Origin: Furfurilactobacillus milii
Lineage (GTDB): Bacteria > Bacillota > Bacilli > Lactobacillales > Lactobacillaceae
NCBI RefSeq assembly: GCF_009863985.1
Contig: NZ_WEZT01000005.1
Location: forward strand, 66,466-130,465
Direction of reading: 5' to 3'
DNA: 64,000 bases
Every line of letters begins with the position of its first letter. Within the stretch, counting starts at the first letter, position 1. Positions 6,758 through 20,273 of the stretch are shown one piece after another. The notes under the pieces are model-generated. The model had not been told where the DNA came from and did not search any database. It worked only from the letters and a program-made list of their open reading frames with translations. The position numbers and the translations under genes were made by a program.

Positions 6758-6824
6758 ACATCAGGTTTCAAACTATCGATGATTCAGTTTTTCTTAATCA
6801 TGAGAGATAATTTTGGAGGCAAAC

Positions 6825-7970
6825 ATGGAAGACGCTGCTGCATTAAAGATTTTAACGGATTTAATTGCGATTCCGTCGGTTAATGATCGTGAATCAGAGG
6901 TTGCTGACTATTTGGCTGGCCTATTTAAGGACTTGCCGGCTCACATTGAACGTGTTACGTTTGCACCAGGCCGTGATAACTTAGTTGTTACAATTGGTGA
7001 CCATGGTCCATTACTAGGGTTCTCTGGGCATGAAGATGTGGTTGCAGCTGGTAATGAAGCTGATTGGACCTTTCCGCCGTTTGCCGGCACAATTGATCAG
7101 GGTAATGTGTACGGCCGTGGCGCCAGTGATATGAAATCTGGTTTAGCCGCACAGGTGGTTGCAATGCTGGATCTGTTAAATTCAAATCAACCGCTGCCTG
7201 GGCGTCTTCGTTTGTTAGCTTCGGTTGGTGAGGAAACCGGTGAGTATGGTGCTGCTCAGTTGACGCAACAAGGATACGCTAACGACTTGGACGGACTTGT
7301 CATTGGTGAGCCCAGTGCGTTTGACATCAAGGTGACGCACAAGGGCGTTATTGACTATAAGGTTACCTCTCTGGGTAAGGGTTCCCATTCATCACGTCCT
7401 GATCAAGGCATCAATGCAATTACGCCACTACTGAAGTTTGCTGAACAAGCTGAATCAGTGATGGCAACAAACGATAAACGGGACGATGTATTAGGCGGAC
7501 TAACGCATGTGATTAGTCAGATTGGCGGCGGTGAACAGATTAACTCAGTGCCAGCAAATGCTTGGCTAACCGGTAACATCCGGACAATTCCATCCTATCC
7601 AAACGATGAGGTCATGGCCCAGTTAGAAGACATTATTGAGTCGTTAAACCAGTCAGGTGCTAAATTAAGTATCAGTTATAGTTATCCCGAGCCACCATTA
7701 CCCTCACAGGCTGGCACTAAATTAGCAGAAATCACACAGGCCGTTTTGAAAAACACCATTCATCGTGGTGGTGAGTTAACTGCTGGAACGGGTGCGACAG
7801 ATGCATCAGAATATACGAAGGCAGGGCAGTTGCCAATCGTTATCGTCGGCCCTGCAGCAGGAACAACTGACCATCAAGTTAACGAAAACGTGGCCGTTGG
7901 TGACTATTTGACTGGATGCCATTTCTATCGAGCCTTGGCAGAAGCGTTCTGGGCACAAGCGGAAGAATAG
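6825..7970 (+). CDS. ArgE/DapE/ACY1-family metallo-amidohydrolase
   Basis: 381 aa, M20 family. Metal-site motifs are visible: GFSGHEDVV (usually SGHxDVV), GRGASDMKSG, and GEETGEYGA with the catalytic Glu pair. HKGVIDYKV begins the dimerisation domain, and ATDASEYTKAG and a late HQVNE supply the remaining ligands. Relatives include succinyl-diaminopimelate desuccinylase, acetylornithine deacetylase and di/tripeptidases; DapE is the usual automatic name but the substrate cannot be fixed from sequence. ATG 6825 follows TTGGAGG. It sits downstream of an amino-acid importer, compatible with a role in peptide or amino-acid use. Confidence 0.85.
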   Translation: MEDAAALKILTDLIAIPSVNDRESEVADYLAGLFKDLPAHIERVTFAPGRDNLVVTIGDHGPLLGFSGHEDVVAAGNEADWTFPPFAGTIDQGNVYGRGASDMKSGLAAQVVAMLDLLNSNQPLPGRLRLLASVGEETGEYGAAQLTQQGYANDLDGLVIGEPSAFDIKVTHKGVIDYKVTSLGKGSHSSRPDQGINAITPLLKFAEQAESVMATNDKRDDVLGGLTHVISQIGGGEQINSVPANAWLTGNIRTIPSYPNDEVMAQLEDIIESLNQSGAKLSISYSYPEPPLPSQAGTKLAEITQAVLKNTIHRGGELTAGTGATDASEYTKAGQLPIVIVGPAAGTTDHQVNENVAVGDYLTGCHFYRALAEAFWAQAEE

Positions 7971-8018
7971 GGTACCAGACAAAACTAATTTTAAAAAAGT
8001 TATTAATAAGGTCAGAGA

Positions 8019-8133
8019 GCGGGACATAACACGTTTTGGCTTTCTCAGGTATCGCGAATAAGGCGTTTATGGGTGCTTTTCCCATGAATGCCTTATTCGC
8101 GTTAGATGAGCAAAAGTCAGTGTTATGTCCCGC
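8019..8133. repeat. Nested long palindrome (cruciform-type element)
   Basis: The outer arms GCGGGACATAACAC (8019-8032) and GTGTTATGTCCCGC (8120-8133) are a perfect 14-bp inverted repeat. Inside it, CGCGAATAAGGC (8053-8064) and GCCTTATTCGCG (8090-8101) are a perfect 12-bp one, and ATGGG/CCCAT close the apical stem around TGCTTTT. The whole can fold as one long interrupted hairpin on either strand. It looks like a non-coding repeat unit or structured RNA rather than a simple terminator because no T-tract follows directly. Confidence 0.7.
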
Positions 8134-8140
8134 GTTTTCG

Positions 8141-8185
8141 GCAATTTTTCATCCGCATGACCTTTTGCGGTTGAAGAAAAATTGC
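8141..8185. repeat. Second hairpin in the dapE-like/uvrC gap
   Basis: GCAATTTTTC (8141-8150) pairs with GAAAAATTGC (8176-8185), and CCGCA (8153-8157) with TGCGG (8166-8170), giving a long hairpin only 7 bp after the nested palindrome. The gap 7971-8355 (385 bp) holds no credible gene; it contains this hairpin, the nested palindrome, a terminator and the uvrC promoter. Confidence 0.6.
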
Positions 8186-8212
8186 TTGTTGATATTTCAT
8201 TAGAAATTAAGT

Positions 8213-8237
8213 TGAGGCGTTATGTCTCAGTTTTTTT
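8213..8237 (+). terminator. Terminator-like hairpin before uvrC
   Basis: TGAGGC and GTCTCA form a 6-bp stem (one G-U) around GTTAT, followed by T7. The right part repeats GTTATGTC, also found in the right arm of the nested palindrome at 8122-8129, so the left outer arm of that element could pair with either copy. Confidence 0.6.
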
Positions 8238-8293
8238 GAACAAAATGGCCGAGACGTCTAGCTAAACGTTTTTCAAACAGACGCTCTTTTGTT

Positions 8294-8321
8294 TTGCGAA
8301 CACGCGTTCATGCGTTATAAT
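8294..8321 (+). promoter_or_regulatory. uvrC promoter
   Basis: TTGCGA (8294-8299), 16-bp spacer, TATAAT (8316-8321), 34 bp before the start codon. The LexA box at 8297-8310 overlaps the -35 element and spacer. Confidence 0.75.
8297..8310. promoter_or_regulatory. LexA (SOS) box controlling uvrC
   Basis: CGAACACGCGTTCA matches the Gram-positive SOS box CGAAC-N4-GTTCG at 9 of 10 defined positions (last base A). Its position over the promoter is the expected arrangement for LexA repression, and lexA itself lies 15 kb away in this window. Confidence 0.75.
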
Positions 8322-8355
8322 TTAACTACGATTTTACGAGAACGGAGGCAGTTTT

Positions 8356-10197
8356 GTGGCATCAGAACACATTGAGCATAAATTAACGTTACTACCGCCA
8401 ATGCCTGGTTGTTACCTGATGAAGGACATTAACGGCAAGATTATTTATGTCGGCAAGGCCAAAAATTTGAAAAATCGTGTGCGTTCCTACTTTAAAAGTA
8501 GTCACGAAGGCAAAACTGCCCAGTTAGTGGCTCACATTGTGGACTTTGAGACGATTGTGACGTCGACTGACAAGGAAGCTTTTTTGCTTGAAATCACACT
8601 AATTCAAAAGCATCAGCCATACTACAATATTAAGTTGAAGCGGGGCACAGGTTACCCGTATATTAAAATTACGCATGAACGTGATCCGCGAATCATCATC
8701 GCAAACGATGTTAAACACGACGGTGGATATTATTTTGGACCGTATCCCAACGTTTACGCGGCCGAAGAAACACTACATTTCTTACAAAAAGTTTATCCTT
8801 TGCGTCGTTGTTCTGGTTATAAAGGGCGACCATGCTTGTACTACCACATGGGGCAGTGCTTGGGGGCCTGCTTTAAAGAAGTTCCCGAGAGCGCGTACGA
8901 TGAGCAGATCAAACGCATTAAATCGTTTTTAAACGGTAATACCGCACGAGTTATCAAACATTTGCAAACACAAATGAAAGAAGCAGCAGCCAGTTTGGAA
9001 TTCGAGCGGGCCGCTGACCTACGTGATCAGTTGCACTACATCGATGTCACGGTTGAAAAGCAAAAGATTATCAGCAACGATCAGACGCCACGGGACATCT
9101 TTAATTTCTATCTGGACAAGGGCTGGTTATCCATTCAGGTTTTCTTTGTGCGGCAAGCACGCTTGATGAAGCGGGAAAAACGGTTGTTCCCAGTTGTTTC
9201 AACAGCACCAGAGGAAATGCAAACGTTTATCATGCAGTTTTATAATCGAAAGAATGCGGTGCTGCCTAGAGAAATTTTGGTTCCTAGCAGTATTGACGAG
9301 GACACCCGGGAATCCATCGAAGATGTGTTGAATGTCCCAGTTAACGTGCCTCAACGTGGTGTTCGTCGCGATCTGATGGAAATGGCGGGTAAGAACGCGC
9401 GACTGGTGTTGGAAGAAAAATTCCGCTTATTGGAGTTAGACGAGCACAAGACCACGGGTGCCATGCAAGAAATTGCGGATGCTTTGGGGTTACCACCCGT
9501 TTCTAAAATTGAAGCTTTTGACCATTCTCATGAACAGGGTGCTGACTTAGTTTCAGCGATGGTCGTTTTCGAAAATGGTCGACCAAATAAGAAGTTATAT
9601 CGCAAGTATAAGTTACGTACGGTGGATCACGCTGATGAAACAGCCAGCACGATGGAAGTTATTCGGCGGCGTTACACACGTTTGCTTAAAGAACATGCAG
9701 ATATGCCCGATTTAATTCTGATGGATGGTGGTGCCATTCAAATGAACGCGGCTAAGGATGTTCTAGAAAATGAGCTTGGATTGGATATTCCGGTCGCTGG
9801 AATGGTCAAAAATGATCATCACCGAACGGCGGACCTAATGTTTGGCGAGGATGATGAGCATCTAAATCTTGATCCTAAGTCACAAGGTTTTTATTTGTTA
9901 CAACGAATCCAGGATGAGGTGCACCGGTTTGCCATCACGTTCCATCGTCAACTGCACAATAAGAATTCATTAAGCTCACGTTTGGATCAAATTCAGGGCG
10001 TAGGCCCAAAAACGCGCGCAAAACTGTTGAAAAAATACGGATCGCTGAAGAAGATTGCGGCTGCACCAGTTAGTGATCTACATGAATTAGGCTTGTCAGA
10101 AACGGTTGCGCAAACCGTTCACGTGGCTGTGGCTGCCATGGTTACCGGTGAAGCCCAACAGTCGTTAAGTTATCTGGACCGTCAGCAAACAATTTAA
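8356..10197 (+). CDS. uvrC: Excinuclease ABC subunit C
   Basis: 613 aa. UvrC makes both incisions in nucleotide excision repair. The N-terminal GIY-YIG nuclease domain (MPGCYLMKD, IIYVGKAKNLKNRVRSYF) is followed by the cysteine region CSGYKGRPCLYYHMGQC and the UVR domain (FERAADLRDQL) that contacts UvrB. The RNase H-like C-terminal nuclease begins near KIEAFDHSHEQG, and tandem helix-hairpin-helix motifs (IQGVGPKTRAKLL) end the protein. The GTG start follows CGGAGG. SOS control is predicted from the overlapping LexA box. Confidence 0.97.
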   Translation: MASEHIEHKLTLLPPMPGCYLMKDINGKIIYVGKAKNLKNRVRSYFKSSHEGKTAQLVAHIVDFETIVTSTDKEAFLLEITLIQKHQPYYNIKLKRGTGYPYIKITHERDPRIIIANDVKHDGGYYFGPYPNVYAAEETLHFLQKVYPLRRCSGYKGRPCLYYHMGQCLGACFKEVPESAYDEQIKRIKSFLNGNTARVIKHLQTQMKEAAASLEFERAADLRDQLHYIDVTVEKQKIISNDQTPRDIFNFYLDKGWLSIQVFFVRQARLMKREKRLFPVVSTAPEEMQTFIMQFYNRKNAVLPREILVPSSIDEDTRESIEDVLNVPVNVPQRGVRRDLMEMAGKNARLVLEEKFRLLELDEHKTTGAMQEIADALGLPPVSKIEAFDHSHEQGADLVSAMVVFENGRPNKKLYRKYKLRTVDHADETASTMEVIRRRYTRLLKEHADMPDLILMDGGAIQMNAAKDVLENELGLDIPVAGMVKNDHHRTADLMFGEDDEHLNLDPKSQGFYLLQRIQDEVHRFAITFHRQLHNKNSLSSRLDQIQGVGPKTRAKLLKKYGSLKKIAAAPVSDLHELGLSETVAQTVHVAVAAMVTGEAQQSLSYLDRQQTI

Positions 10198-20184: not shown

Positions 20185-20273
20185 GGAGAGTTGGCAGAGT
20201 GGTAATGCAACGGACTCGAAATCCGTCGAACCCGTTTATAGCGGGCGCGCAGGTTCAAATCCTGTACTCTCCT
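20185..20273 (+). tRNA. tRNA-Ser, anticodon CGA
   Basis: 89 nt class II tRNA. Acceptor GGAGAGT pairs with ACTCTCC, anticodon stem ACGGA/TCCGT encloses CTCGAAA giving anticodon CGA (reads UCG). A long variable arm with CCCG/CGGG and the TTCAAAT T-loop are present. CCA is not encoded. The gene stands alone with its own promoter and terminator. Confidence 0.95.

Follow-up and report, generated by a model that had tools for sequence, protein, structure and literature searches.

The stretch of DNA analyzed here (the window; 64,000 nucleotides of Furfurilactobacillus milii, genome G000) holds a set of nested palindromes in the gap between an M20-family peptidase gene and uvrC (Table 1). As the earlier note had stated, the gap encodes no protein: no open reading frame of at least 60 amino acids lies wholly inside it, and two minus-strand frames extend into it from the peptidase gene. 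The inverted repeats described there were recovered by a repeat search. Perfect 14-nt arms (8019-8032 and 8120-8133) enclose 33-nt arms (8041-8073 and 8081-8113; 82% complementary) that include, by eye, a perfect 12-bp pair (CGCGAATAAGGC/GCCTTATTCGCG), and a second hairpin has arms at 8141-8153 and 8173-8185 (92% complementary). The motif GTTATGTC does recur in the right outer arm and the last stem, at 8122 and 8219, inside a 17-nt direct repeat with copies 76% alike. The run of seven T's is also present; the terminator-like stem thought to precede it was not listed by a terminator scan. Folded as RNA, the gap reached -132.2 kcal/mol (z = -7.45), and none of 100 dinucleotide shuffles was as stable. 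Rfam 15 gave no match to the element at the gathering score across the whole window and none in L017 and L019, copies of the element, or in L098, which belongs to the G004 family of Table 1. The letters of the promoter-like site before uvrC are identical in all six genomes. A tRNA at 20185-20273 is the window's sole Rfam match at the gathering threshold.

Table 1. Positions of the features discussed (window coordinates unless another record is named)
Feature	Position	Strand	Basis or remark
M20-family peptidase gene	6813..7970	+	element occupies its putative terminator site
Intergenic gap	7971-8355		between the M20 peptidase gene and uvrC
Whole element, long form, 220 bp	8015..8234	+	alignment of 11 full copies and the G003 empty allele
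Left 16-bp terminal inverted repeat, GAGAGCGGGACATAAC	8015..8030	+	sequence, copy alignment
Hairpin A: outer arms of 14 nt, perfectly matched, enclosing a long apical stem (8041-8113)	8019..8133	+	repeat search, fold, covariation
Middle copy of end motif; first copy of the direct repeat bounding the proposed short-form deletion	8122..8138	+	
Hairpin B	8141..8185	+	absent from short-form copies L019 and L065
Right terminal inverted repeat	8219..8234	-	family form GAAACTGGGACATAAC; window copy deviates at two letters
Second copy of the direct repeat	8219..8235	+	
T7: element end plus probable leftover T's of the replaced terminator	8231..8237	+	filled versus empty allele
Promoter-like TTGCGA-16-TATAAT before uvrC	8294..8321	+	element lies upstream
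uvrC	8356..10197	+	
G004 family	L098 1662-1846 (G004)		with 20 aligned matches, L156-L175
Third dispersed family, 164 bp	L106 1713-1876 (G000:C45:419299-419462)		ends GAGCTGTAGCATAAG / GAGGTTGCGACATAAG

The element limits in Table 1 come from 11 full copies with differing surroundings, and the G003 empty allele agrees with them to 1 to 2 bases. The earlier note had proposed a repeat family, to be checked by similarity search, and the search showed one. In the 2.38-Mb window genome, positions 8011-8240 gave 12 matches that reduced to eight distinct places once a weak match of 21 bases (E = 0.475) and three echoes of the palindrome on the reverse strand were removed. Five of the six Furfurilactobacillus genomes contained matches, as did 5 of 397 genomes in a search of the family, all of them Furfurilactobacillus and none among the 391 outside the genus (two candidates were scored per genome, so that weak relatives beyond the genus could be missed). 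The suggestion that such palindromes are dispersed in lactobacilli thus holds for this genus; elsewhere in the family it yielded a single looser relative, considered at the end. A 32-letter pattern found eight stretches in named genomes, all Furfurilactobacillus (F. milii FUA3430, F. rossiae DSM 15814, and F. milii C5), with records close to the window genome possibly excluded. No match was found in either the plasmid or the phage collection at an E value of 0.01, and an origin there was set aside.

The retrieved copies represent 28 sites, 12 common to at least two genomes and 16 found in one genome only, 8 of these in F. rossiae (G002). Several weak rows of the genus search, mostly from G005, are not among the retrieved copies, and four others were left out (L006 and L071, with no end found; L032 and L036, with the left part missing). 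Movement looks recent in F. rossiae, since copies L013, L017, L029, and L033 are 96.8 to 99.1% alike. Neighboring genes were called with a crude open reading frame caller (at least 70 amino acids, longest first), and the majority was taken where orthologous copies disagreed. Of the 27 sites with both neighbors called, 11 lie between convergent genes, 16 between tandem genes, and none between divergent genes, which places every one of them downstream of the 3' end of at least one gene. At the tandem sites the element is oriented with the genes in 12 cases and against them in 4 (two-sided P of about 0.08, calculated by hand), and we do not claim an orientation bias.

Comparison of filled and empty alleles revealed how the element inserts. 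At the uvrC site of G003, with flanks nearly identical to those of the window, the element is absent and AACCGGGTCGTTCATTATGAACAATCCGGTT followed by a T-run stands in its place. We searched for orthologous flanks of 12 further sites and could compare 11 (S12 had no ortholog). At 9 of 13 sites, the window's among them, a terminator-like hairpin occupies the position of the element in the empty allele; S9 and S11 offered no usable empty allele, and S6 is taken up by a different repeat in the other genomes. Junctions and hairpin limits were read by eye, and "terminator" here means a hairpin plus T-run by sequence. In the filled alleles the hairpin is gone and the A- and T-runs beside the stem are kept. 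Both junctions fall 0 to 3 bases from the stem foot at S1, S2, S3, S4, S5, S8, and S10, and with the window this applies to eight of the nine hairpin sites; at S7 the loss comprises the hairpin and, on its left, about 7 bases more. No target duplication was seen at the sites with empty alleles. In five targets (S1, S2, S3, S7, and the window) just one side was judged by eye to carry a T-run, and in all five it lies at the element's right end. By the same comparison, T7 in the window is suggested to be partly the T-run of the replaced terminator.

The replaced hairpins were unusually stable for their composition: in eight of nine, none of 2,000 shuffles, which preserve letters only and not dinucleotides, was as stable (eight were for S4). 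Six of the eight exactly located hairpins (all except S1) have no equally stable segment of the same length within 600 bp, and S4 and S7 have three and one, respectively. At the window site the genomes hold mixed alleles, with the hairpin only in G003, the long form in G000, and short forms in G001 and G002, which is compatible with more than one order of events. A remnant of the element suspected by eye at the G005 uvrC site was not borne out (E = 0.075).

Three of the six genomes contain matches to PF13751, used here to look for an IS1182-family transposase: one in G000, seven in G002, and one in G003. None was found in G001 or G005, both of which carry copies of the element, or in G004, which has a repeat family of its own with similar ends. 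The 577-amino-acid transposase of G003 scored 348.4 bits with NF033551 ("IS1182 family transposase"; cutoff, 270), and the companion insertion sequence therefore belongs to the IS1182 family. It is 1,830 bp long (L079 624-2453), and its ends begin GAGTTTGGGACAAAAC on the left and GAGTTTGGGACATAAC on the right. Like those of the small element, its ends are 16 bp long, and the right one contains the core TGGGACATAAC; end letters 3 to 6 differ in part between the two. In its family form, either end of the small element agrees with the right IS1182 end at 13 of 16 letters and with the left at no more than 12 of 16; the right end of the window copy, which departs from the family form at two letters, has fewer in common with the right IS1182 end. 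Exact GGGACATAAC occurs seven times in G000, six times in end or middle motifs of the small element and once at the end of the IS1182 copy. We saw no other likeness between the two beyond the ends, which indicates that the element is not simply a shortened IS1182 copy.

The IS1182 copy in G003 has also replaced a hairpin, GACCACAATTCCGATTTACTTCAGAATTGTGGTC, which is present in G000 and G001 and with two letters changed in G002. Both kinds of element, the small one and IS1182, thus share a mode of insertion. To the right of the IS1182 right end, 4 to 7 of the first 8 bases are T in all nine copies seen. F. rossiae combines the largest number of IS1182 matches (seven) with eight sites of its own, the near-identical copies among them. 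All seven of these matches (L054-L060) lie at contig ends, which suggests that the insertion sequence interrupts the assembly. In G000, the single PF13751 match (L052 1354-2778, contig C8) is an IS1182 copy that appears to be out of frame over the first 90 or so codons, and the window copy may therefore be stranded at present. It sits at the end of an open reading frame that we take to resemble ISL3-type transposases.

The element exists in two lengths. A form of 122 to 123 bp, lacking everything between the middle and right GTTATGTC copies, occupies the uvrC site in G001 and G002. At a second site the G002 copy (L068) is short, with the junction again at GTTATG, and those of G000 and G003 are long. 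The repeated motif had been proposed to give the left arm two possible partners and hence to be a possible switch. The predicted folds speak against this: every one of the 11 long copies has its left arm paired with the middle copy (mean probability of at least 0.998), and the alternative right partner is 6.5 to 10 kcal/mol weaker. The direct repeat is better read as a probable deletion point, through which the short form would derive from the long one. In the two short forms folded, the left end pairs with the right end and the foot of the stem stands directly before TTTG.

Taken together, these comparisons of sequences make it very probable that the feature is a nonautonomous, MITE-like transposable element with IS1182-type ends that replaces terminator-like hairpins. 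Counting against this reading are the confinement of the IS1182 likeness to the ends, the lack of an IS1182 element with identical ends, the genomes G001, G005, and G004 without a PF13751 match, and the sites that gave no clean empty allele. It would move when an IS1182-family transposase recognizes the 16-bp ends, and the partly common ends and the shared mode of insertion point to the resident IS1182 transposase, or a close relative, as the probable enzyme. The element would be joined at or near the foot of a target DNA hairpin, typically an intrinsic transcription terminator; the hairpin would disappear but leave the A- and T-runs that border its foot, so that the terminator stem is replaced and no target duplication arises. 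In the window, the M20 peptidase gene, which lies upstream of uvrC, would have had its terminator exchanged in this way. Later recombination between the two internal GTTATGTC repeats would leave a single long hairpin whose foot lies beside the kept T's, presumably making the site terminator-like again.

This mode of insertion is known from IS1272 and TnSha1, IS1182-family elements of staphylococci. According to the accessible parts of the reports, both insert into hairpins, several of them confirmed terminators, and delete the stem-loop sequence without target duplication (PMC5678879, PMC4923244). The element described here is like them in its hairpin or terminator targets, in the removal of the stem-loop, in the lack of duplication, and in several independent insertions per target, and IS1272 has inverted ends of 16 bp as well (PMC5678879, PMC4923244). 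As far as these sources go, there are three differences. IS1272 and TnSha1 carry a transposase gene, whereas the small element is non-coding; TnSha1 removes hairpins partially, whereas here removal usually extends to within 0 to 3 bases of the foot; and one TnSha1 target was entered in both orientations, whereas here the right end always faced the one-sided T-run. In G000, G002, and G003 the transposase is encoded elsewhere in the genome. The element works like IS1272 but, being non-coding, is not itself an insertion sequence. It is short, multicopy, and dispersed, as is a MITE, and its inverted ends match those of an autonomous element in part, the latter being the presumed driver. Since no duplication was seen, we call it a MITE-like element of IS1182 type and not a strict MITE.

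Two other origins deserve consideration. A cis-acting regulatory RNA for uvrC, a riboswitch- or attenuator-like switch, would account for the very stable nested fold and for the doubled GTTATGTC motif. It would have to operate from upstream of the uvrC promoter-like site, through an alternative pairing with a probability of about zero, in a sequence without an Rfam match whose copies stand at 27 other sites; we regard it as extremely improbable. Hardly more probable is a palindrome of the REP/BIME type that owes its spread to a RAYT (Y1) transposase and not to an IS1182 enzyme. Such a repeat would fit an intergenic palindrome at the 3' ends of genes. REP elements are shorter and are not known to have terminal inverted repeats of this kind, whereas the present element has 16-bp IS1182-type ends and takes the place of hairpins in the manner of the resident IS1182 element.

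The transposable-element reading is compatible with a further claim, namely, that the element is retained as a functional transcription terminator with its hairpin RNA under selection, so that insertion swaps one terminator for another and is nearly harmless. We consider this possible, although we would not give it even odds. In its support stands compensatory variation in hairpin A, a check proposed by the earlier note. The alignment comprised 29 of 45 extracted hairpin regions, hand-picked at about one or two per site, plus L016 added by hand. Among these 30 copies, 17 of 38 pairs had changed on both sides (3 of 500 shuffles were as high). Cells changed on both sides numbered 91, compared with 27.9 (standard deviation, 5.1) in shuffles, none of 500 being as high, and with 11 to 26 when the structure was slid along the alignment. 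The structure was derived from the same alignment that was tested, with the outer helix added by hand, and this weakens the argument to that extent. The suspicion of an undescribed structured RNA was right in that the stems covary and have no Rfam match; the feature itself is better described as a mobile element.

The mispairs lean in the same direction. On the T-run strand, G-U outnumbered A-C mispairs by 94 to 29 cells and by 57 to 26 inferred changes (P = 0.0009), an excess expected for RNA of that strand that favors RNA-level selection in the terminator direction. Singleton mispairs showed no such strand bias (9 G-U to 11 A-C), and mutation templated by the palindrome could also yield compensatory changes. 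The positions of the stems give a similarly divided picture. Both short forms place the stem foot directly before the kept T's, and the one-sided T-run targets have their T's at the element's right end; on the other side, the short-form foot is followed by TTT only, the right end of the long form does not pair with the left (probability of at most 0.001 in 11 of 11), and the two long folds inspected show no strong stem next to the T-run.

Other repeats have entered the same sites. G004, which has no match to the element, carries a different repeat with IS1182-type ends at two of them, S4 and uvrC. A profile of this family confirmed both repeats (E = 1e-62 and 6.5e-42; the one at uvrC is cut by a run of N's), and at least 44 rows matched it in G004 among the 40 of 133 candidates that were scored. 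Its 19-letter core, with up to three mismatches, occurs at 99 places in the 2.1-Mb genome and at none in the reversed control. In most aligned copies, as judged by eye, the left part forms a hairpin with T's behind it, and sequence differences between sites at the foot of the stem are compensatory. The third family, whose ends are similar too, has matches in five of the six genomes and lies at S6, where F. rossiae carries the first. It is conceivable, with about the same reserve as above, that Furfurilactobacillus hosts several lineages of terminator-exchanging elements, that every insertion takes out a terminator of the host, and that the element serves as, or decays through the deletion between its internal direct repeats to, a replacement terminator whose RNA stem is selected.

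The insertion mode is thus already known; a non-coding family that uses it, its occurrence in lactobacilli, and the combination of a covarying hairpin with a short form are apparently unreported. In the open-access literature we found no report of a nonautonomous hairpin-replacing family or of hairpin replacement in lactobacilli, which does not prove absence from print, and the accessible text of a 2024 review of prokaryotic MITEs contains no occurrence of IS1182, IS1272, or "lactobacill-" (PMC10969869). SPRITE, BOX, and RUP of Streptococcus pneumoniae are likewise small, strongly folding, dispersed repeats that occur in excess between convergent genes; in the consulted portion of the study that describes them, SPRITE resembles a terminator, and no comparable empty site was found for it (PMC3049150). 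By that description, on which the likeness rests, BOX and RUP make target duplications, unlike the present element (PMC3049150). If our reading is correct, structure-guided, hairpin-replacing transposition extends from a staphylococcal insertion sequence to small non-coding elements of lactobacilli. Under the less certain reading with several lineages, terminators would be exchangeable parts of the genome, one such family occupying the 99 places counted in G004. The ready pairs of filled and empty sites, which fix junctions to within a few bases, would provide a natural system for asking how a transposase recognizes a DNA hairpin and how bacteria tolerate the swapping of many transcription terminators. 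They also carry a warning that covarying nested palindromes between genes can be mobile elements and not regulatory RNAs.

We did not find an IS1182 element with exactly the small element's ends. An 18-letter pattern searched for such a parent in the 397 genomes of the family returned five Furfurilactobacillus genomes and one place in G388, a genome of another genus. What lies there is a related palindrome in which the motifs GAGAGTGGGACATAACGC and CGTGGGACATAAGGC occur; no transposase was recognized by eye among the open reading frames of at least 80 amino acids in the 3-kb locus, and it was rejected as the parent. The palindrome (L150, about 1410-1522) is a looser relative whose end and middle motifs are similar, scoring 10.8 bits with the element's profile. 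It lies about 560 bp from an open reading frame that looks, by eye, like the window's M20 peptidase.
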